Assembly (NCBI GenBank): GCA_025362495.1
Contig: JANYGI010000164.1
Span: 1-38,563, forward strand
Origin: Byssovorax sp.
GTDB lineage: Bacteria > Myxococcota_A > Polyangia > Polyangiales > Polyangiaceae
Reading direction: 5' to 3'
DNA length: 38,563 nt
Shown here: positions 18,786-33,920 of the stretch, one piece after another
Layout: each line of letters opens with the position of its first letter
Position numbering within the stretch: position 1 is the first letter of the stretch
The notes under the pieces: generated by a model
Told to the model about the DNA's origin: nothing
Databases searched by the model: none
Seen by the model: the letters and a program-made list of their open reading frames with translations, nothing else
Program-made: the position numbers and the translations under genes

Positions 18786-19451
18786 TCAGCAGCCTGGGGC
18801 GCGGGCGATGCCCTTCTTCAGGCGCGCGAGCTCCTGGATCTCCTGGGCAATGGCGAGCGTGCGGAGCGCCGCCGTGCGCGCGCGGCCCTGCTCGTCGTCG
18901 GTGACGGCGAGGCGCAGGAGGAGCTTGCGGCCGAGCTCGTGGTGGTGGGCTTCGTCGGGCTGGATCACGTCGCGGTAGAGGCTCGCGGTGACGCTGTCGC
19001 CCTTCGATTCGCAGTACGCGATGAAGGCCTCGTTGAGCACGCGCGCCAGCGCCTCGCGGGTGAACTGCCCCGCCGCGACGCGCTCCACCGTCGTCGTCAG
19101 CGTCTCCAGGTACTTGAACATCGGGCTGGGTTCGCCGCTCTGCGCCTGCACCTTCGCCGGATCGACGCCGAGCTCGCGGAGGCGCGCCTCGATCAGCCGG
19201 TAGTGCCGCGCCTCGTCGCCGCACTGGCGCGCGAGCGCGAGCTTGACCTCGACGTCGGGCTCGCTCACCAGCCAGAGCGCCGCCTCTTCGGTGGCTTCGA
19301 GCTCTTTCTTCAGCGCCGTCGCGAGCAGCTCGGGGACGCCGAGGCTCGGGCCCGGCTCGGCGCCCGCGCCGCTCTCGGCGATCTGATCGAGTCGAGATTG
19401 CACGGCCCGATCGAGCTCGGCGAGGAAATCGCTGGATTGCATGAGCCGCAT
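18786..19451 (-). CDS. Ferritin-like four-helix protein with putative di-iron motifs
   Basis: A 221-residue protein from the ATG at 19451 (an ATG nine bases later is also possible). It is almost entirely helical and polar, with no signal peptide, so it is cytoplasmic. The helices carry the glutamates and histidines of a ferritin-like di-iron bundle: EATEEAALWLV, QCGDEARHYRLIEARL, NEAFIAYCESKGD and VIQPDEAHHHELGRKLL. The DEARH and DEAHH motifs are the expected Glu-x-x-His ligand pairs. Members of this superfamily store iron, act as oxidases or serve as hydroxylases; the exact family is not recognised. It lies 23 bases after the cytochrome lipoprotein gene on the same strand, so it may belong to that operon and link it to iron or oxygen. 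Confidence 0.8.
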   Translation of the reverse strand: MRLMQSSDFLAELDRAVQSRLDQIAESGAGAEPGPSLGVPELLATALKKELEATEEAALWLVSEPDVEVKLALARQCGDEARHYRLIEARLRELGVDPAKVQAQSGEPSPMFKYLETLTTTVERVAAGQFTREALARVLNEAFIAYCESKGDSVTASLYRDVIQPDEAHHHELGRKLLLRLAVTDDEQGRARTAALRTLAIAQEIQELARLKKGIARAPGC

Positions 19452-19474: not shown

Positions 19475-19864
19475 TCAATCGTCGGGAGCGCCGCACACGA
19501 GCCAGCCTTCGATGGCGACGCGCTCGGCCGACGTGAGCGGCGAGGCGCCCTCGGGAGGCATCTTGCACGCGTGGATCTGGTTCAGCACGGCGCTCCGCCG
19601 CGCGAAGACGTCGGCGTGGTCGGTGAGCGGTTTGTCGGCCGCCGCGCCGCCCGGCGCATGGCAGACGGCGCAGCGCGCGGCGATCACCGTGGCCACGTCG
19701 GTGGACCACGTCGGCGCGGGCGTCGGGCAGCTCGCGGGGAGATCGTTGGGGCAGCTCGCCGCGCCGCCGGTGCCGCTGCTGCCGGTGGTCGACGTCGAGG
19801 TGGTCGTCTCGCCGCCGCACGCGGCGACGAGCAGCAAGAGCGTGGAGAGCGCGATCGATTTCAT
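19475..19864 (-). CDS. Small c-type cytochrome lipoprotein
   Basis: The ATG at 19864 overlaps the stop of the upstream redoxin gene by one base (TGATG); a GTG three bases earlier is possible. The 129-residue product has a signal peptide and lipobox (LLLVAAC), a Ser/Thr/Gly linker, then one haem-binding site CAVCH. A later KMPPEG gives the methionine expected as sixth ligand, followed by the closing helix (SAERVAIEGWLVCGAP). This is the plan of single-haem cytochromes found in many delta-proteobacterial and myxobacterial lipoproteins, carrying electrons outside the cytoplasmic membrane. Coupling to a thiol redoxin and a barrel suggests one exported complex or pathway. Confidence 0.88.
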   Translation of the reverse strand: MKSIALSTLLLLVAACGGETTTSTSTTGSSGTGGAASCPNDLPASCPTPAPTWSTDVATVIAARCAVCHAPGGAAADKPLTDHADVFARRSAVLNQIHACKMPPEGASPLTSAERVAIEGWLVCGAPDD

Positions 19865-20433
19865 CACTTCCGCCTCAACGCGCAGCCCAGCGCTGCGGCC
19901 TCGGCCGGCCGCGGATCCGCGCCGGCGAGCAGGCGATCGACGGCGTCGCGGACCCAGAGCGAGGCGTTGGCCGTCACGTGGGTGCGGTCCGAGTCGAGGC
20001 CGCCGCGATAGCGCACGGCCCCCGCGCCGTCGATGATCACCGTGTACGTCGCGAACTCGGCGCCGAGCGCGTCGGCGAGCGCGCCCGCGGGATCGGCGAG
20101 GATCGGGAACGGGTAGTGACGCGATTTCGCCTCGTTTTCAGCGCGATCCGGCGTGGCTCCGGCCTCGGAGTCCACGGCGATCACCTCGACGCCGCGGCCC
20201 TGGTACGCGACCGCGAGCTCGCGCAAGCGAGCGTCGTGCGCCGCCTGGCAAGGGCACTCGGCCGAGAAGAACTCGATCACCGTGACGTGACCGGGCTTGA
20301 CGATCTCGGCGAGGCGATGCGGGCCGTCGCTCGCGAGCAGCGTCGCGTCGGGCAGGCGCGACGGCGCGCGCGAGGCTGGCGCGCAGGCTCCGATCGCGAG
20401 CGCGATCGCGAGCGCGATCGCGGCGCGGATCAC
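19864..20433 (-). CDS. Thioredoxin-fold redoxin lipoprotein with CPC active site
   Basis: A 189-residue protein from the ATG at 20433, which overlaps the upstream barrel gene's stop (ATGA). The signal peptide is unusual: its core is built from ALAI repeats encoded by a 12-base tandem repeat, ending in the lipobox AIGAC. The mature part is a redoxin/TlpA-type thioredoxin fold: DATLLASDGPHRL, VTVIEFFSAECPCQAAHDARL, VEVIAVDSEAG and the cis-Pro region replaced by a later FATYTVIIDGAGAVRYRGG. The active site is C-P-C rather than C-x-x-C, as in some redoxins paired with copper or haem maturation. It probably reduces or protects thiols, or handles a metal, in the periplasm. Confidence 0.87.
   Translation of the reverse strand: MIRAAIALAIALAIGACAPASRAPSRLPDATLLASDGPHRLAEIVKPGHVTVIEFFSAECPCQAAHDARLRELAVAYQGRGVEVIAVDSEAGATPDRAENEAKSRHYPFPILADPAGALADALGAEFATYTVIIDGAGAVRYRGGLDSDRTHVTANASLWVRDAVDRLLAGADPRPAEAAALGCALRRK
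20391..20422 (-). repeat. 12-bp tandem repeat inside the redoxin signal peptide
   Basis: CGATCGCGAGCG occurs at 20391-20402 and 20403-20414, with a partial third copy to 20422. On the coding strand it gives the repeated Ala-Leu-Ala-Ile of the hydrophobic core. Copy number change would lengthen or shorten the core by four residues without breaking the frame. Confidence 0.75.
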
Positions 20434-21362
20434 GACCAGCTCCGCAGGATCATCAGCGTGAGCACCGCGCTCGCAGGCTGGTTCCAGCCGAGATAGCGCA
20501 CCGGCAGATCGGTCCCGAGGCTGCCTTGCAGGCGCCAGAGATCGCTAATCGGCACGCCCCCCGCGACGCCGACGCGCGTCGCGGCGCGTCCGCTCCCGGG
20601 CACCGCTGCGCCGTCGATCGTCGCGTCGAGCTCGGCCGTGTACGACAGCGTCAACGCCAGCACCGGCCCGCTCGCGAACGAGTAGCCACCCGCCGCGGAG
20701 GCCACGAATTGCAGGCCCTGGCGCGTGTGCAGCTCGCCGACGGTGCGCGGCGCGCGCCACGCCGCCGCGCCGGTCACGTTGACGAGCCACGGCCCGAACG
20801 TCTGCTCGAGCGCGAGCGCGATTGAAGCCTGCAGCGCTCCGATCCCCGTCGCGTCGGTCGCGAGCGGTTTCATCGAGGCCTCGGGCGCGCGGCCCGTCGG
20901 CAGCATCACGCCGGCCGCGAGCGCGATGCCGGGGATCGTCACCGACGAGCCCGAGATCGTGAAATCCCACCGCGCGCCGAGCTGCAGATCGCCGAGATCC
21001 CCGCCTGACTCGGCGAGCCCGGGCACGCTCCGGTACGTCTCGACTATCGGCACGATCGCCGAGAGCTGCCCGCGCCGGAGCACGCGGACGCTGCCCGCGA
21101 GATCCTGCTCGAAATCGAATTCCTTCGCGCCGGCCGAGGCGCCGAGGAAACGCCGGTCTCCATCGAACGATCCGTGGAGATCGGCCCCCTTGATCTGGAG
21201 CCCCACGAGGGCGTCTTCGTGCAGCGCGAGGCGCGCCGGCGTGAGCGCGCTGGCCCCCGCGCAGCACGCCTGCGCCGCGGCGACGCGCGGCGCGAGGACG
21301 GCGAGCGCGAGCGCCGCGGCAGCGAGGAAACGGCTAGTGGATCTGGAACGCGACGGTGGCAC
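20430..21362 (-). CDS. Outer-membrane beta-barrel / transporter-like protein
   Basis: A 310-residue protein from a GTG at 21362, the only start that keeps the whole signal peptide; it overlaps the end of the YtkA-like gene by 29 bases. After the signal peptide (LAAAALALAVLAPRVAAAQ) comes a Cys-Cys pair (ACCAGASA) and then amphipathic strands with Gly/aromatic turns (LGDLQLGARWDFTISG, GIALAAGVMLPTGRAP, WRLQGSLGTDL, VLTLMILRSWS). The pattern and length match a 12- to 14-strand barrel of the family often called transporter or MetA-pathway-of-phenol-type proteins, but the exact family is uncertain. Its operon partners suggest a channel for small molecules, metal or electrons serving the cytochrome and redoxin. 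Confidence 0.82.
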   Translation of the reverse strand: MPPSRSRSTSRFLAAAALALAVLAPRVAAAQACCAGASALTPARLALHEDALVGLQIKGADLHGSFDGDRRFLGASAGAKEFDFEQDLAGSVRVLRRGQLSAIVPIVETYRSVPGLAESGGDLGDLQLGARWDFTISGSSVTIPGIALAAGVMLPTGRAPEASMKPLATDATGIGALQASIALALEQTFGPWLVNVTGAAAWRAPRTVGELHTRQGLQFVASAAGGYSFASGPVLALTLSYTAELDATIDGAAVPGSGRAATRVGVAGGVPISDLWRLQGSLGTDLPVRYLGWNQPASAVLTLMILRSWS

Positions 21363-21774
21363 TGTCTTTCACGGCTCCAGCGATCGTCGTCCGCAGCTCC
21401 CACCGGCCGGGCATGAAGCACGCGACGTCGGAGATGAGATAGTGGCCACCACCCTTGGCCTCGATCGACGGCTTCGTCGAGGCCCCGTGGCCCATCTCGG
21501 GCATCCACGGCTGCACCGCGAGATCGAGGCCGTCGACCGGCGTTCCGTTGGCGTCGGTCGCGACGATCTCCACCGAGATCAGGCCGCGCGTGGGCGGCTG
21601 CGCGGGCGCGGTGCGCACCTCGAACGAGAGCGCGCCGTGGTCTGTCTTCAGCGTCGTCAGCGGCGCCGAAGGGAACGTGGGATCGGCCCCGCCCCCCGCG
21701 GCCGTGCCCGACTCGCCGGTGCATCCGAGCAAGAGCAGCCCGAGGGCGAGCCCTGCCGCGATCACGTTGCGCAT
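21334..21774 (-). CDS. YtkA/FixH-like lipoprotein 1
   Basis: A 146-residue protein from the ATG at 21774 with a strong GGAGGA ribosome site. The lipobox is LLLLGC, then a short Gly/Ala linker. The mature domain is an immunoglobulin-like beta sandwich of YtkA type: FEVRTAPAQPPTRGL, ISVEIVATDANGTPVDGL, VQPWMPEMGHGAS, GGGHYLISDVACFMPGRWEL and TVAFQIH. The Met/His motif (MPEMGHG) is the family signature and may bind copper or another metal. Similar proteins appear beside cytochrome oxidases and copper-handling genes. It is 36 bases from YtkA-like protein 2 and overlaps the barrel gene, so all three are probably one transcript. Confidence 0.85.
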   Translation of the reverse strand: MRNVIAAGLALGLLLLGCTGESGTAAGGGADPTFPSAPLTTLKTDHGALSFEVRTAPAQPPTRGLISVEIVATDANGTPVDGLDLAVQPWMPEMGHGASTKPSIEAKGGGHYLISDVACFMPGRWELRTTIAGAVKDSATVAFQIH

Positions 21775-21810
21775 GCGCTGTCCTCCACCGTCACCCAGCG
21801 TTGACGGCGA

Positions 21811-22458
21811 TCAGGGAACGTTGACGAAGAAGGCCACGTGGCCGTGCGGCGAGTCCTCGGTCAGGTCCGAGCAGTCCTCGTGGATGTGGAAGCGGACGGT
21901 CCACTTGCCGGCCGCGTCGAAGCGGATCGGCCCGACGGCGTACGTGCCCGTGGGCGACTCGGTCGTCTTGGCGTCGCTGTTCGGAGCCGGGTGCGTGTCG
22001 TTGAGGTAGGCCTCGATGTCGACGTCCCCCATCGGGACAGGCTTGCCGTCGCTCTTGGTGGTGATGACGGCAGTGAAGGTGACGTCGCTGTTCTCGCCGA
22101 TCGACGTCGCCGTCCAGCTCAGGTGGTACTTGCAGTCGTCGTCGTCGGCCTCGGCGTTCGAGAGCGTGTCGCCGTACTCGCTCACGGCGCCGCCCGCGCC
22201 GGTGCTCGTGCTCGTGCTCGTGCCGCCGCCGCCGGCGCCGTCGGTCGGGTGGCAGGCCGCGGCGCTGACAGGCTGCACCTTCGCGCCGCAGTGCTTGTCG
22301 GCGGGGCCCGTGACGGGGCCGCCCGTGCCGCTGCTCCCGCCGCCGCTGCCCGTGCTGGTGGAGCTGGTGGTGCCGGAGGACGAGCAGGCGGCGCCCGACA
22401 TCACGAGGGCCAGCGCGAGCGTAGCGAGCGAAGAAGCGACGGAAAAGCGAGCGAGCAT
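21811..22458 (-). CDS. YtkA/FixH-like lipoprotein 2 with long cysteine-bearing linker
   Basis: A 215-residue protein from the ATG at 22458 with GGAGA upstream. The lipobox is SGAAC, followed by two Ser/Thr/Gly-rich low-complexity stretches around a small Cys-containing part (DKHCGAKVQPVSAAACHP). The C-terminal 110 residues are a beta sandwich: YHLSWTATSIGENSDVTFTAVI, VDIEAYLNDTHPAPNSD, TGTYAVGPIRFDAAGKWTVRF and HIHEDCSDL...SPHGHVAFFVNV. This shares the order of strands with the two other YtkA-like proteins here but has its His/Cys residues near the C-terminus rather than a MPxMGHG motif, so its metal site, if any, differs. It heads the minus-strand operon, divergent from the cytochrome pair. 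Confidence 0.75.
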   Translation of the reverse strand: MLARFSVASSLATLALALVMSGAACSSSGTTSSTSTGSGGGSSGTGGPVTGPADKHCGAKVQPVSAAACHPTDGAGGGGTSTSTSTGAGGAVSEYGDTLSNAEADDDDCKYHLSWTATSIGENSDVTFTAVITTKSDGKPVPMGDVDIEAYLNDTHPAPNSDAKTTESPTGTYAVGPIRFDAAGKWTVRFHIHEDCSDLTEDSPHGHVAFFVNVP

Positions 22459-22591
22459 GGGCGGTCTCCAGGAAGCGAGATTGGTCGGGAGACGGCGACC
22501 CTAGCGCGCGCCCGCAGCTCGCACGATGCGGCATGTTGTCGCAGCACCCGCCTGCCGCGATCGCGATCGGCATGGTAGCGTCCGCGTCCCG
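22459..22591. promoter_or_regulatory. Divergent promoter region between the two arms of the exported cluster
   Basis: These 133 bases separate the outward-reading YtkA-like gene and cytochrome-like gene and must hold both promoters. I see no confident -35/-10 pair. The local sequence has a short A-rich spot near 22440-22445 and a CGATCGCGATCG palindrome at about 22558-22569 that could be an operator. Confidence 0.35.
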
Positions 22592-23026
22592 ATGATCTCG
22601 TCCGCTTTCACTCGCGCCGTCGTGGCCCTCGGGCTCGCCGCGCTGGCCTCGGGCTGCGGCCCCGCCGAGACGACGTCGACCTGCGTTCAGGGCCTCGATC
22701 TCGCGTGCGCGCCGCTCTACGAGCCCACCTTCGATCAGATTTACACGCGCACGCTGAAGCCCACGTGTGCGATCTCGGGGGCGAGCTGCCACGCGAGCGA
22801 GGGCGCGATGGGCGGCCTCGTCTTCGCCGACGCCGACGGCGCCTACGCCGCGCTGCTCGGGCAGGGCGGCGCGAAGCCCCGCGTGGTGGCGGGCGACGCG
22901 GCCTGCAGCCTGGTGATCGAGCGGGTCGACGCGACCGACAGCAAGGTCATGCCGCCGGGCGCGCCGCTCGCGGACGCCGAGCGCTGCGCCATCGCGCAGT
23001 GGATCCAGAACGGAGCGAAGCGATGA
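22592..23026 (+). CDS. Cytochrome-like lipoprotein with atypical C-x6-C-H motif
   Basis: A 144-residue protein from the ATG at 22592; the frame upstream of it has no ribosome site. The lipobox is LASGC. The mature part reads PTFDQIYTRTLKPTC then AISGASCHASEGAMGGL, later SLVIERVDATDSKVMPPG and CAIAQWIQNGAKR. This is the plan of the cytochrome-c-like domains common in myxobacterial and planctomycete lipoproteins, including a Met-Pro-Pro sixth-ligand motif, but the two haem cysteines are six residues apart instead of two. It either binds haem in an unusual way or has lost it. The stop overlaps the start of the five-haem cytochrome gene (ATGA), so the two are coupled. Confidence 0.82.
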   Translation: MISSAFTRAVVALGLAALASGCGPAETTSTCVQGLDLACAPLYEPTFDQIYTRTLKPTCAISGASCHASEGAMGGLVFADADGAYAALLGQGGAKPRVVAGDAACSLVIERVDATDSKVMPPGAPLADAERCAIAQWIQNGAKR

Positions 23027-24528
23027 AGCACGTCGGAGGCTTGATCGCGGCGTCGGCGGCCGCGGCGCTGCTCGGGGCCGGCGCGTGCAGCGGCGGGACG
23101 AGCGGCACCAGCGGCACGGGCGGCGCCGGCGGAGCGGTCGCGCCGCTGACGACCGAAGAGCTGATGGACCCTCAGGCCTGCTCCACCTGCCACCCCGATC
23201 ATTTCAAGGAGTGGTCCGGCAGCATGCACGCTTATGCCGGGGAAGATCCGGTGTTCCTGGCGATGAACGCCCGCGGCCAGCGCGAGACCAAGGGCGCTCT
23301 CGGCGACTTCTGCGTGAAGTGCCACGCTCCGATGGCGCTGAGCACCGGCGCCACGAAGGACGGTCTGAACCTGGCCGACGTGCCCGCGAAGCTCCGCGGC
23401 GTGACCTGCTTCTTCTGCCACTCGGTCGACGCGGTGAAGGGCACCCACGATAACCCCCTCACCCTCGCCGGCGACGGCGTGATGCGCGGCGGGATCAGCG
23501 ATCCCGTGAAGACAGGCGCCCACCAGGCCGCCTATTCGAGCCTGATGGATCGCACCACGGCCGACTCGTCGAGCCTCTGCGGGAGCTGCCACGACATCGT
23601 CGCTCCGCTCGGCGCGCACCTCGAGCGCACCTACGCCGAGTGGCAAGGCACGCTGTTCTCGCACGCCGATACGCGGCTCTCGTGCAGCCAGTGCCACATG
23701 GATGGTCGCTCCGGCCTCGCGGCCCAGGCCCCCGGCGTGAAGCTCCGCAAGGTCCATGGCCACGGCTTCCCCGGGGTCGACGTCGCGCTCACCGATTTCC
23801 CCGAGCAAGCGACGCAGACGGCGGCCATCCAGGGATCACTCGATACCACGCTGCAAGCGGCCCTGTGCGTGAAGGGCGCCGACTCGCCCGGCGCGACGAT
23901 TCAAGTCGTCCTCGACAACGTCGGCGCCGGGCACCTCTGGCCGAGCGGCGTGGCCCACGATCGCCGCGCCTGGGTCGAAGTCCAGGCCTTCGCTGCCGGC
24001 AAGGTCATCTACCAGAGCGGCGTGGTGGCCGACGGCGAGTCCATCACCAAGAGCCCTGATCCCGATCTGTGGTTGATGCGAGAGTGCCTGTTCGACAAGC
24101 AGGACAAGCAGGTCGCCATGTTCTGGGAGGCCGCCAGCTCGGAGACGGCGCAGCTCCCGGGGCCGACGACCAACGTGCCCACCGATCCCGATTACTACCT
24201 CACCCACGTGTTCCGCACCTTCCCGCGGCCGACCTCGACGCCGGCCGCGCTCGCAACGCCGCCGGACCGGATCACGATGCGCGTGCGGATCGTGCCAGTC
24301 GGCCTCGACGTGCTCGACGATCTCGTCGCCAGCGGCGATCTGAAGGCCGCAGTGAAGGCCAAGATGCCAGTCTTCACGCTGGCCGGGACGACCCTGGAGT
24401 GGACGGCCGCCGCCGCGACGATCAAGTACCCCGAGCAGGGTATCCCGGTCTCGTGCGTCTCGGCCGGGCTCACGACCGGCGCCAACACCGCATCCCCCGC
24501 GCCGGAGAACACCAAGTGCTCTCCCTGA
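23023..24528 (+). CDS. Five-haem c-type cytochrome lipoprotein
   Basis: A 501-residue protein whose ATG at 23023 overlaps the previous gene's stop. After a signal peptide and probable lipobox (GAGAC22) and a Gly/Ser/Thr linker, five CxxCH haem sites lie at 53-57 (CSTCH), 97-101 (CVKCH), 129-133 (CFFCH), 186-190 (CGSCH) and 221-225 (CSQCH). Several spare histidines (HPDHFKEW, MHAYAG, KVHGHGFPG) could act as distal ligands. The spacing recalls the cytochrome c554 / multihaem group. Residues after 260 have no haem and form a beta-rich domain (ATIQVVLDNVGAGHLWPSG, AWVEVQAFAAGKVIYQSG) that may bind a partner or substrate. It probably moves electrons in the periplasm or at the surface. Confidence 0.92.
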   Translation: MKHVGGLIAASAAAALLGAGACSGGTSGTSGTGGAGGAVAPLTTEELMDPQACSTCHPDHFKEWSGSMHAYAGEDPVFLAMNARGQRETKGALGDFCVKCHAPMALSTGATKDGLNLADVPAKLRGVTCFFCHSVDAVKGTHDNPLTLAGDGVMRGGISDPVKTGAHQAAYSSLMDRTTADSSSLCGSCHDIVAPLGAHLERTYAEWQGTLFSHADTRLSCSQCHMDGRSGLAAQAPGVKLRKVHGHGFPGVDVALTDFPEQATQTAAIQGSLDTTLQAALCVKGADSPGATIQVVLDNVGAGHLWPSGVAHDRRAWVEVQAFAAGKVIYQSGVVADGESITKSPDPDLWLMRECLFDKQDKQVAMFWEAASSETAQLPGPTTNVPTDPDYYLTHVFRTFPRPTSTPAALATPPDRITMRVRIVPVGLDVLDDLVASGDLKAAVKAKMPVFTLAGTTLEWTAAAATIKYPEQGIPVSCVSAGLTTGANTASPAPENTKCSP

Positions 24529-24537
24529 GCCGGGCCT

Positions 24538-25077
24538 TCAGCCGTCGACGCAGAAGCTGACGACGGCCGAATCGTCGAGGCCGCCGGGCGTCGTCACCGT
24601 GAAGGTGATTTGCCAGACTCCCGGCATGAAGAGGTTCACCGGGTTGATCTCGTAGGTGCCGTCGGTGCCCTTGGCCGTGGCCGTGGGCTTGATCGAGCTA
24701 CCGTGGTTGTGGTCGGGCATGAACGGCTTGGTGACGATCGTCGCGCCGTTGATGGGCTTACCGTCCTTGTCGAGCAGCTGCACCGTCCAGGTGTTGTTAC
24801 CCTTGGTCGGCGGCGCCGGAACGGCATCCATGAAATGAACGGTGAGCGCCCCGTCGGTGGCCTTGGCCACGACGCCGACGGCGTACGAGGTGGTGCGAGG
24901 ATCCTTGGCGCAGGCGGCCTCGACCGTGGTTCCGGTGCTGGACGAGGCCGACGTGGACGCGCCGCCGCCCGTCCCGCCGGTCGTCTCCCCCTGCCCGCAG
25001 CCGGCCGCGAACGTCGCGGCGAGGAGGCCAATCGAAGCGAAAAGGGCCGCGGATACGTGGGATCGAACGGTGGGCAT
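24538..25077 (-). CDS. YtkA/FixH-like lipoprotein 3
   Basis: A 179-residue protein from the ATG at 25077 with GGGAG upstream. The lipobox is FAAGC, then a Gly/Ser/Thr linker. The mature domain has the same strand order as YtkA-like protein 1: GALTVHFMDAVPAPPTKGN, TWTVQLLDKDGKPINGA, TKPFMPDHNHGSS, GTYEINPVNLFMPGVWQIT and SAVVSFCVDG. The Met/His motif here is MPDHNHG, clearly the counterpart of MPEMGHG. The gene converges on the five-haem cytochrome with only nine bases between them, so it is a separate transcript but part of the same locus. Confidence 0.86.
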   Translation of the reverse strand: MPTVRSHVSAALFASIGLLAATFAAGCGQGETTGGTGGGASTSASSSTGTTVEAACAKDPRTTSYAVGVVAKATDGALTVHFMDAVPAPPTKGNNTWTVQLLDKDGKPINGATIVTKPFMPDHNHGSSIKPTATAKGTDGTYEINPVNLFMPGVWQITFTVTTPGGLDDSAVVSFCVDG

Positions 25078-31739: not shown

Positions 31740-33920
31740 ATGGTCGCTAAACGACGTCCCGGTACGATTGCCCGGCGTCTCCCGTTGCCGCTCTGCCTCG
31801 TCGCTCTCGTCGGCTGCTCCTCGGGCGGCGGCGCCACGGGCGACGATCCCGTGCCGATGTGCACCCCCCACCGTGGCGCCGCCGCCGGCCAAGGTGCCTG
31901 ACGACAAGATATCTCCGACCCGGCTCCTCCGCCGCGTCACCCTGGCGCTGAGCGGGCACGTGCCCACGATCGACGCCTACGAGGCGCTCGCCAAGGCGCC
32001 CGACGCCGAGGCCGTGATCCAGAAGGCCATCGACGACGGGCTCGCCTCCACGGCCTTCTACGAGCAGATGGTGGACTTCGGTCACCAGTGGATCACCACC
32101 GGCGCCTTCAGCACCGGCGCCATGGGCGACGGCTACTCGGGCAACATGTCGGCGCACATGGGGCAATGCAGCTCGACGTCGCTCCACCCCGGGGCGTGGT
32201 TCGTTTACCAGGAGTCGCCCGTCGCCGAGAATTGCTGCGACGACAAGGACGAGATGGGCAATCCATCGCCCGCCCCGCTCGAGGTCGTCGAGCCCTGGTG
32301 GGCGCCGGGGACGCAGGTCACCGTCGTCGGCTGGGCGACGAAGAAGGATCTGGAGTACGACGACGGCGGCGGCAAGATGGTCAATTGCGCCTCGGCGGCC
32401 ACGCTCTACTACAACGCCGGGAGCACGGCGGGCTGCGGCTGCGGGCCCAACCTGGTGTGGTGTTATCCCGGCTCGGGCCTCGGCTCGGGCTCGTCGCTCG
32501 ACGACAAGCAGCAGCGGCGCCACGCGTGGGACGAGCCGGCGCGCCTCGTCGCCCACCTGGCCTGGCACGATCGGCCGCTCAGCGATCTCGTGACTGGCAA
32601 TTACACGGTGGCCAACAACATGGTCCGCGCGCCGGCCTCCGCATCGCCCGGACGTGGGATCCTGCCGATCCGAAGAACCGGGCCGGCTACACTCTCACGC
32701 CCGCCGGCTACGGCTGGGTCGACGCCAAGCTCGCCGACCGCACCACGGTGATTCACCGCATCAACCAGGGCGCGTTCGATCACGGCGGCGCCTACGTCTC
32801 GGCCATGTGCGGCGTCCCCGGGGCGTCGTACCGCGCGCCGGCGTTCGTCTCGGTGATTGCCAATTTCCTCAACCGGCGCTTCGCCGACAGCCGGCCTCTG
32901 CCCTGCGTCGCGATCCGCGCCAACGGGATGCCCGTCGCCTCCGGCCTGCCGGCGGCCTCGTCCCCGGTCCTCATCCAGTCGTTCGACGGGATCTCCTGGT
33001 ATTTCTCGGCCGATCCCGCCGTGGCGCCCTGGTGGAAGGGGCACGAGACCCGCAGTCCCTTCGACGTCCCGCCCTTCGGCGCCGACGATCCGACTCGCTC
33101 CATCCCCGCGACCGATCTCGAGCGCTTCACCCTGCAGCGCCTCCGCAAGCTCCATGGCCACTCGTCGGCCGGGACCGACGCTATCGCCCAGCAGATGTAC
33201 GAGGGCTACGCCCAGACCAGCACCACGCTCGCCCGCGACCTCGTCAAGGTCCTCAACGCCACCAAGGGAGCCGAGCACGCCAAGCCCGACTACGCCGCCG
33301 CCTATGGCCCCTTCGGCGTCACCTTCGGCGCGGCCAACGGCGGGGTCGATCTCGCGGGCGCGGCCGACATGACGCTGCGGCTCCTGAAGAGCGATCTCTG
33401 CAGCGTGGTGTATGCGTTCCTCGACGAGGTCTACTATGACAGCCACTCTGGCCAGATCGGGCAGGCTTCGGGCACGGCGCGCCTGCGGGCCGAGCTCGAC
33501 ATCATCGCCCGGATCCTGGGCGAGATGAAGCAGACCCCGGCCCCGGGGCTACCCGGCAAGACGCTCTATGACGACACCCTCGTCGTCATCCTCAGCGAGT
33601 TCAGCCGCACCTGGGCCAGCGGCAAGGACCAGAGCTCCGCGGCAGGGTGGCAGTTCCCGGACGACCACTTCAATTACACCAGCGTGATCCTCACCGGCGG
33701 GAACACGGCGCCGAACCGCCAGATCGGCGGCTTCGACCTCGATCCTGCCGTCAAGGGTCAGGCCGTGGCCATCCTCGACGAGAGCGGCACGATGGTGAAG
33801 CGCGTCCCGACGGCCGCCGATCTCGTGGCCACCGTCTGCGGCGCCTTCGGGATGAAGATGGGCGCCGATTTCTTCATCCCCGGAGGCTACGGGCAAATTC
33901 AGGGAGCCATTTCGATGTAA
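31740..33920 (+). pseudogene. Lipoprotein with DUF1549-like and DUF1501-like parts, broken by two opposite frameshifts
   Basis: Reading from the ATG at 31740 gives a lipoprotein signal peptide (LPLPLCLVALVGCSSGGG) but this frame ends near 31910. At a run of six C (31863-31868), skipping one base joins it to a second frame reading VAPPPAKVPDDKISPTRLL, then a DUF1549-like stretch (RVTLALSGHVPTIDAYE, VDFGHQWITTG) and a Cys-rich part, up to about 32632 (NNMVRA). Here the meaning moves back to the first frame (GLRIARTWDPADPKNRAG) and continues to 33920 with a DUF1501-like region (AFDHGGAYVSAMCG, DTLVVILSEFSRTWASG, NYTSVILTGGNTAPN). One added base and one lost base thus cancel out over 726 codons. 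The family pair is common in planctomycetes and myxobacteria as two adjacent genes; here they may be fused. Sequence error is a fair alternative to decay. Confidence 0.75.

Follow-up and report, generated by a model that had tools for sequence, protein, structure and literature searches.

CtaK is a Bacillus subtilis protein of the YtkA family. It has been implicated alongside Sco in the assembly of CuA, and copper rescues the loss of CtaK (PMC13344008). The same rescue is described for the loss of either CtaK or Sco (PMC13344008, PMC9145763). CtaK has conserved His and Met residues and its His118Tyr mutant is defective, while Sco (SenC/PrrC) is marked by a CxxxC motif and a distal His (PMC9145763). 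Helicobacter pylori CrdA is described in PMC9182242 as a secreted copper-binding protein that contains no His or Cys and whose candidate site is rich in Met; it is grouped with CrdB, CzcB, and CzcA. This report concerns a locus at positions 19475-25077 of a 38,563-nucleotide stretch of DNA from Byssovorax sp. (contig JANYGI010000164.1), in which three YtkA-like lipoproteins are encoded together with a redoxin, a beta-barrel, and three cytochrome or cytochrome-like lipoproteins. The whole stretch is called the window; it is an entire contig (C56) of a 10.8-Mb genome of 96.6% completeness.

The locus is probably an envelope copper-handling set built around lipoproteins of the YtkA/CtaK/CrdA type. 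Its parts are of known kinds. The core pairs a copper-type lipoprotein with a predicted outer-membrane channel, and this pairing turns up repeatedly in the phylum, frequently beside a redox-sensing regulator. What it shares with CtaK and Sco is the presence of YtkA lipoproteins with conserved Met and His beside an exported thioredoxin-fold lipoprotein; unlike that pair, its redoxin carries CPC rather than CxxxC, a barrel and cytochromes are added, and no oxidase motif was found nearby. In Rhodobacter, the gene order is RegB-SenC-RegA, also named PrrB-PrrC(SenC/Sco)-PrrA. Relatives of the window resemble this arrangement in having a RegB/RegA-like pair beside the exported copper-type set, often with the redoxin, but the pair scores below the equivalog cut-offs, YtkA, barrel, and CPC redoxin replace Sco, and the pair is absent from the window locus. 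The channels of COG4313 and FapF, whose usual contexts are aromatic catabolism and amyloid secretion, have the fold predicted for the window barrel, which differs in its N-terminal CC and its copper-type gene context. MbnP and MbnH (like MopE/SACCP and CorA/CorB) exemplify the pairing of a haem protein with an adjacent partner that binds copper; in relatives they stand beside RegB/RegA genes, and beside YtkA genes in two loci (L107, L141). In contrast to these pairs, MbnP was not found in the window genome, and the pentahaem cytochrome of the locus is of the Cytochrome_C554 and not the MauG type. MbnP and MbnH were called partners in 2013, in an account presented without direct copper data (PMC3621798), and the current NCBIfam name of MbnP is copper-binding protein. 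The preliminary description of this DNA knew of no described system with exactly this set of genes; the combination is likewise absent from titles and abstract openings among the matches listed for the open literature, a body of work that leaves subscription journals largely outside.

Five tightly coupled genes form a minus-strand operon in the order Ytk2, Ytk1, barrel, redoxin, and cytL. Ytk2 (21811-22458), a YtkA-domain lipoprotein with an acidic/Cys/His region, opens the operon and is separated by a 36-bp gap, as read from the sequence, from Ytk1 (21334-21774), a YtkA/CtaK-like lipoprotein with the motifs MPEMGHG and M-x-G-x-W. The barrel gene (20430-21362) starts at a GTG inside Ytk1, sharing the last 29 bp of that gene, and it encodes a predicted 12-stranded outer-membrane channel of the COG4313/FapF type with Cys-Cys at its predicted mature N-terminus. 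It is joined at a GTGA to the gene for the redoxin (19864-20433), a thioredoxin-fold lipoprotein with a CPC motif and a conserved C-terminal Cys184, which is joined in turn at a TGATG to cytL (19475-19867), a mono-haem c lipoprotein with CxxCH and MPP. On the plus strand, PSCyt (22592-23026), a cytochrome-like lipoprotein in which C-x6-CH and MPPG occur, is coupled by an ATGA at 23023-23026 to a gene for a pentahaem cytochrome lipoprotein (23023-24528; PF13435, five CxxCH). Ytk3 (24538-25077, minus strand), a YtkA/CtaK-like lipoprotein with MPDHNHG and M-x-G-x-W, is the partner of the pentahaem module; it is convergent to the pentahaem gene, and 9 bp separate the two ends. The preliminary description had placed eight exported-protein genes together here, and all eight reading frames are where it put them; the ATGA and TGATG overlaps by which it had recognized a coupled minus-strand operon are present as well, the ATGA belonging to the plus-strand PSCyt/pentahaem pair, and so are its MPEMGHG and MPDHNHG motifs. 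Lipoprotein-like starts occur in seven of the eight proteins (six by pattern, the LLGC of Ytk1 by eye), and the barrel has an ordinary signal peptide, also judged by eye.

The YtkA proteins supply part of the link to copper. As proteins, Ytk1 (expectation value, E, 2.7e-10) and Ytk3 (E 2.2e-15) match the YtkA family PF13115 above its cut-off, and Ytk2, at 25.5 bits, lies 0.4 bit short of the cut-off of 25.9. A search of the whole 10.8-Mb genome with PF13115 returned exactly three matches, all above cut-off (Ytk2 included) and all within the locus, whereas among 14 control genomes four had a match and two had one above cut-off. The clustering of the three genes is more than chance. The conserved Met and His residues regarded as putative copper ligands of the YtkA family are found in the Ytk1 and the Ytk3 sets: aligned with Ytk1, Met91 is present in 43/43 sequences and His96, Met121, and Trp125 are each present in 42/43, and in the Ytk3 set Met120, His125, Met151, and Trp155 are invariant (17/17 each) and His123 occurs in 16 of 17. 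Ytk2 has a lipobox-like GAAC, and its homologues are found near pentahaem, RegB/RegA, or barrel genes in loci L043, L055, L057, L094, L107, L118, and L120. A separate family in relatives (c12) was taken by eye for another YtkA/FixH-like Met/His protein; the one member tested had no NCBIfam match, and the family enters no count.

Comparison with solved structures points to the same kind of protein. A Ytk profile of 33 rows has H. pylori CrdA as its best match (5e-9), with an alignment that pairs the methionines of MP and of M-x-G-x-W. Modelling of a YtkA-like protein, proposed in the preliminary description as a check on metal sites, was run for Ytk1 and returned a copper determinant as the closest solved fold: the model, with a predicted local distance difference test score (pLDDT) of 91, matches CrdA best in its apo form (9ll2, E 3.5e-6) and its silver form (9ll4, 1.9e-5). 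A DUF4426 protein, the copper proteins P19/FetP/FtrA, and CopC follow with weaker matches. Met99 of CrdA belongs to a Met cluster proposed as the copper site in a model of that protein (PMC9182242), and Met121 of Ytk1 would pair with it.

The stable core of the system is a YtkA gene beside the barrel gene. Two recurring modules can be recognized, module A (Ytk1-barrel, with or without redoxin) and module B (PSCyt-pentahaem with a YtkA partner). Counts rest on profile hits because the gene caller misses some genes, such as the barrels of L035 and L037. Within the class, 40 of the 192 genomes, the window genome included, have matches to the barrel at E<=1e-3, at 43 places besides its own; 40 of these places were fetched, leaving out G048, G173, and G085, the first of which was later added as L124. 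In 36 of the 40 class loci, and in 17 of 20 loci selected from other classes, the barrel has a YtkA gene on its own strand no more than 700 bp away. Across the phylum, 57 of 282 genomes (own included) match the barrel profile at E<=1e-20. The redoxin stands by the barrel in 19/40 class loci and 4/20 loci of other classes, and RegB or RegA lies within 6 kb in 14/40 and 6/20, respectively. The other members are sparser: PSCyt and Ytk2 are each near the barrel in 3 of the 40 class loci and cytL in 4, while the pentahaem gene is found within 9 kb in 6/40 and, in the other classes, 0/20. Since many contigs end near the gene, these neighbour counts are lower bounds. The preliminary description had asked whether the gene order is kept in myxobacterial relatives, and the answer is divided, in that YtkA with barrel recurs but the cytochromes seldom accompany them. 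Its fear that relatives might show no conserved neighbourhood was not borne out, both modules recurring; the eight genes are, in place of one fixed set, two modules with optional additions.

The recurrent gene cluster beside the barrel in relatives is a histidine kinase with a response regulator. The four kinases tested against NCBIfam match ActS/PrrB/RegB best (223-272 bits, equivalog cut-off 350), and the four regulators tested match ActR/PrrA/RegA best (173-188 bits, equivalog cut-off 250) with a lead of 87-101 bits; the next family of another kind scores 84-115 bits for the tested RegB and RegA proteins. The pair is RegB/RegA-like by sequence, with all eight tested proteins below the equivalog cut-offs. 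Among 41 kinases, the GGxxNPF and RCR motifs, to which roles are ascribed in RegB, occur in 38 and 34 sequences, and HExxTP occurs in 33. Of 37 RegA sequences, 26 have a Cys in the helix-turn-helix segment, 10 have none, and 1 is unreadable. Copper is bound by the RegA of Rhodobacter capsulatus, which dimerizes through Cys156 when both Cu(II) and oxygen are present (PMC9147068).

RegB-type kinases are common (107/192 class genomes at E<=1e-40), and MbnP occurs in 64/192. Of 20 loci picked from the best RegB matches, 11 have a barrel, YtkA, Ytk2/cytL/pentahaem, or MbnP gene near RegB/RegA (L106, L107, L108, L116, L117, L118, L119, L120, L123, L124, and L125); some of the barrel matches in these are weak (34-63 bits), and L117 and L124 carry a barrel already known. 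MbnP (TIGR04052) and MbnH (TIGR04039) both exceed their curated cut-offs beside RegB/RegA in L107 and L119, as does MbnP alone in L123. In L107, about 6.3 kb hold RegA, RegB, a Ytk3-like protein (MPDHGHG), a Ytk2-like protein, cytL, MbnP, and MbnH, and in L141, from another class, barrel, YtkA, RegB, RegA, MbnH, and MbnP lie together (the last two by single-sequence profiles). Linkage was compared with rough expectations that assume an 8-Mb genome and, for pentahaem, use only the 45 best places. At distances up to 5 kb, RegB-MbnP pairs number 17 where about 0.12 would be expected, RegB-barrel pairs 15 where about 0.03 would be, and RegB-pentahaem pairs 5 where 0.05 would be. Because the window genome has neither RegB nor MbnP at the thresholds used, these links are a property of the relatives.

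Several observations weigh against a copper-handling set. An adhesin ranks second (1.9e-8) among the sequence matches to the Ytk profile, and immunoglobulin-like domains that bind no metal also resemble the YtkA models, with weaker scores. Seven barrels (L042, L054, L062, and L072 in the class; L128, L134, and L135 in other classes) have no YtkA gene within 700 bp. In the window genome, no RegB was found at E<=1e-40 (9 of 172 first-look candidates scored) and no MbnP at E<=1e-15; no RegB/RegA pair was found beside the locus, and the best RegA (103 bits) belongs to a divergent pair on contig C30, away from it. Nine of the 20 RegB loci (L109-L115, L121, and L122) have no family match to barrel, YtkA, or MbnP near RegB/RegA, although the L110 locus is no longer than 3.3 kb, a weak pentahaem match lies 3.7 kb away in L114, and L109 encodes a Met/His-rich protein (by eye). 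Barrel and MbnP lie within 5 kb of each other once, and pentahaem and MbnP never. A scan of 101 loci with crude motifs, which miss divergent forms, found no haem-copper oxidase, CuA, NosZ, or multicopper oxidase, so the idea of a neighbouring cuproenzyme, whether a terminal oxidase or another, was rejected and no client is named. The redoxin, moreover, is ruled out as a Sco protein. Metal handling, and copper in particular, is the theme with the best support. The divergent pair on contig C30 (L146, 12500-13021 and the adjacent gene) is RegA/RegB-like, with GGLHNPF in the kinase, and is unlinked to the locus.

The redoxin itself is a thioredoxin-like protein. It matches the Redoxin family (E 2.4e-12 in a comparison with the Redoxin and AhpC-TSA families), and its solved relatives are 2ywi (best, 2.2e-28), 3u5r, and 2cvb. 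CPC is present in the window protein and in 16 of 22 aligned rows; C60 is conserved in 21/22, C62 in 18/22, and C184 in 20/22, counts that retain L056, L058, and the cut L105, which are possibly untrue members. The CxxxC of Sco is missing from the window protein and appears in only 4 of the 22 rows, in each of which it ends at the lipobox Cys of the leader. The active site of TlpA, ResA, and DsbE is CxxC. Among the rows, an active-site CxxC is confined to L056 and L058, which look like other thioredoxins, and the window redoxin was rejected as a member of this group, having CPC and a DsbE score of 29.6 against a cut-off of 123.

Whether a copper-handling set serves supply or tolerance can be weighed from its neighbours. 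Supply is the first choice because of the resemblance to CtaK and the RegB/RegA-type neighbours, both of which point to respiration. Tolerance is its strong rival, on which the YtkA proteins would be CrdA-like copper buffers and the barrel would help to remove copper or a copper complex in detoxification; it stands out because the closest solved relative of YtkA is a copper resistance determinant, because a copper-type P-type ATPase adjoins a YtkA gene in L091, and because the Myxococcus xanthus copper-tolerance cluster curA includes a cytochrome gene of PF13442, the Pfam family nearest to cytL (PMC3707914). A scan for P-type ATPase motifs in the 101 loci gave three hits. That in L091 (ACPC, YHS/heavy-metal-type N-terminus, classed by eye) looks like a copper type, which counts for copper handling in general as well as for tolerance; it lies 92 bp upstream of the YtkA gene that adjoins the pentahaem gene. 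The hit in L065 was set aside as it looks by eye like another class, and the hit in L132 is a chance motif, as the 148-residue frame in which it falls is none other than the YtkA gene. A single copper-type ATPase (by eye) and no multicopper oxidase in 101 loci, with resistance-nodulation-division pumps outside the scan, argue against a tolerance system, which is a possible but doubtful account of the locus.

A second doubtful account is that two separate systems adjoin by chance, one made up of YtkA, barrel, and redoxin, the other of a pentahaem redox protein that is independent of them and has a YtkA partner to itself. Module B is indeed far more widespread: at E<=1e-3, and counting the window genome and distant matches, 127 of the 192 class genomes match pentahaem against 40 for the barrel, and the modules are close in only a minority of the genomes that hold both. 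In 20 loci picked among the best pentahaem matches, excluding those already fetched with a barrel, no more than 1.2 kb separates the pentahaem gene from a YtkA gene in 15, and PSCyt is found in 13, in every case on the strand of the pentahaem gene; no YtkA accompanies pentahaem in L089, L097, L101, L103, and L105, of which L097 and L105 are near contig ends. Chance adjacency is opposed, however, by the recurrence of close modules outside the window in L040 (7.7 kb apart), L043, L046, L051, L052, and L057, and by barrel-pentahaem pairs within 5 kb at 5 places against about 0.03 expected. In genome G081, the two modules may also adjoin across a contig break (L094, L053). Both modules carry YtkA and sometimes have RegB/RegA neighbours, and Ytk2 and cytL occur with either. 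In L099 (4441-10998), the genes that come after pentahaem and YtkA encode exported proteins, which we take to resemble DUF3570 and DUF4266, and include some that by eye look like alternative complex III.

The cytochromes of the locus are of three kinds. CytL falls just short of PF13442 (E 1.4e-5, 25.8 bits, cut-off 27) and has one CxxCH; this motif, Met103, and four further Cys are kept in 7/7 sequences. PSCyt matches PSCyt1 (PF07635, E 2.3e-6). In 17 sequences, the window and 16 relatives (L046, L051, L057, L086-L088, L092, L093, L095-L098, L100-L102, and L104), it has C-x6-CH in 16 and C-x5-CH in 1, CxxCH in none, and a conserved MPP. Because cytL has a canonical CxxCH and both proteins keep four further Cys besides the lipid Cys, C-x6-CH can fairly be read as a candidate non-canonical, wide-spaced haem c attachment motif. 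The pentahaem protein matches Cytochrome_C554 (PF13435, E 8.5e-9), has five CxxCH and many invariant His, and is 49-60% identical to 26 relatives; its nearest solved sequences are cytochrome c552 (5ze8, 4e-15) and then the multihaem selenoprotein MccSep (2e-7).

The barrel bears on the two remaining explanations. It matches PF13557 (Phenol_MetA_deg, E 4.2e-7), and its 310-residue model (pLDDT 90.5) has 12 long strands by count, both features of COG4313/MetA-type channels. Foldseek places FapF (5o67, 3.6e-17) and a COG4313 channel (4rl8, 1.1e-15) first, with a template modelling score (TM-score) to the query of about 0.7. Cys33-Cys34 is conserved in 40 of 41 barrels. The barrel is predicted from its model to be an outer-membrane channel, which is the part that the preliminary description had given it. 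Porin-cytochrome conduits have a large barrel able to hold a multihaem cytochrome. Extracellular electron transfer, in which the cytochromes and barrel would form an electron route across the outer membrane, is suggested by the three cytochrome-type lipoproteins (pentahaem, mono-haem, and PSCyt) beside a barrel, and by a faint likeness of the pentahaem protein to ExtKL (NF040886, 28.6 bits, cut-off 250); it is very unlikely, as the 12-stranded model, best matched by COG4313 and FapF channels, is too small for such a conduit and pentahaem genes rarely lie near the barrel. The earlier alternatives of electron transfer or metal handling across the envelope therefore separate, with copper favoured and a large electron conduit improbable on account of the 12 strands. 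On the last reading, the barrel would be a COG4313/MetA-type channel that carries a hydrophobic organic compound and is accompanied by a redox system, metals playing no role. This has in its favour the Pfam name and fold of the barrel and aldehyde-dehydrogenase-like genes (cluster c9) several genes away in 4 loci (two same-genus pairs), but it is very unlikely when nothing else catabolic-looking recurs by the barrel and YtkA, redoxin, and RegB/RegA do.

Two further observations concern barrels in relatives. A second barrel type near RegB/RegA (L106, L108, L123, and L125; by eye) has a mature N-terminus with CxxC, followed by a GD.TLT-like segment, and this start echoes the CC start of the window barrel. 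At L067 (G162:C327), a genome with an intact barrel locus holds a second, fragmentary YtkA-barrel copy, in which a stop codon interrupts the barrel match.

A ferritin-like gene (18786-19451) lies about 23 bp downstream of cytL, by the start of the gene caller. The preliminary description had listed it after the set, and it is present; it was dropped as a part of the system and is regarded as a mere neighbour because its DUF455, MiaE, and Ferritin matches are all below cut-offs and its profile found only itself in the 61 loci searched. Farther along the window, at 31873-33920, are two adjacent, overlapping genes, the first of which we take, by eye, to be of the DUF1549 type (planctomycete cytochrome-associated).

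Envelope copper handling by this set might work as follows. Beyond the cytoplasmic membrane, copper, most likely as Cu(I), would be bound by the Met/His sites of the YtkA proteins. It would cross the outer membrane, inward or outward and either as such or on a small carrier, by way of the 12-stranded barrel, which has a pair of Cys at its N-terminus. Metal sites or client cysteines could be kept reduced by the CPC redoxin, a Sco/TlpA-type role beside CtaK-type partners. The mono-haem and pentahaem cytochromes may exchange electrons with YtkA-carried copper or with the respiratory chain, and may thereby set the redox state of copper or thiols. In relatives, the adjacent redox two-component pair of the RegB/RegA (PrrB/PrrA) type probably controls the set. 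A bolder version, unlikely but offered tentatively, is an outer-membrane copper pathway of the phylum's own, in which a YtkA lipoprotein would hand copper to or from the Cys-tipped channel, the CPC redoxin would replace Sco, RegB/RegA-like proteins would tie the pathway to respiration, and the pentahaem cytochrome would be a redox or maturation partner of Ytk3, in parallel with the MauG-like/MopE, CorB/CorA, and MbnH/MbnP pairs, though made of parts unrelated to theirs.

The passage of copper over the outer membrane and its matching to respiration are poorly known in Gram-negative bacteria outside model groups. The YtkA-barrel core occurs through the phylum and is linked in relatives to RegB/RegA-like sensors and to MbnP/MbnH, and it thus provides concrete genes and proteins for study. 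The proposal made here is that the core may represent a Sco-free, outer-membrane version of the CtaK route, and that the pentahaem cytochrome, which is very common, may have a partner here.

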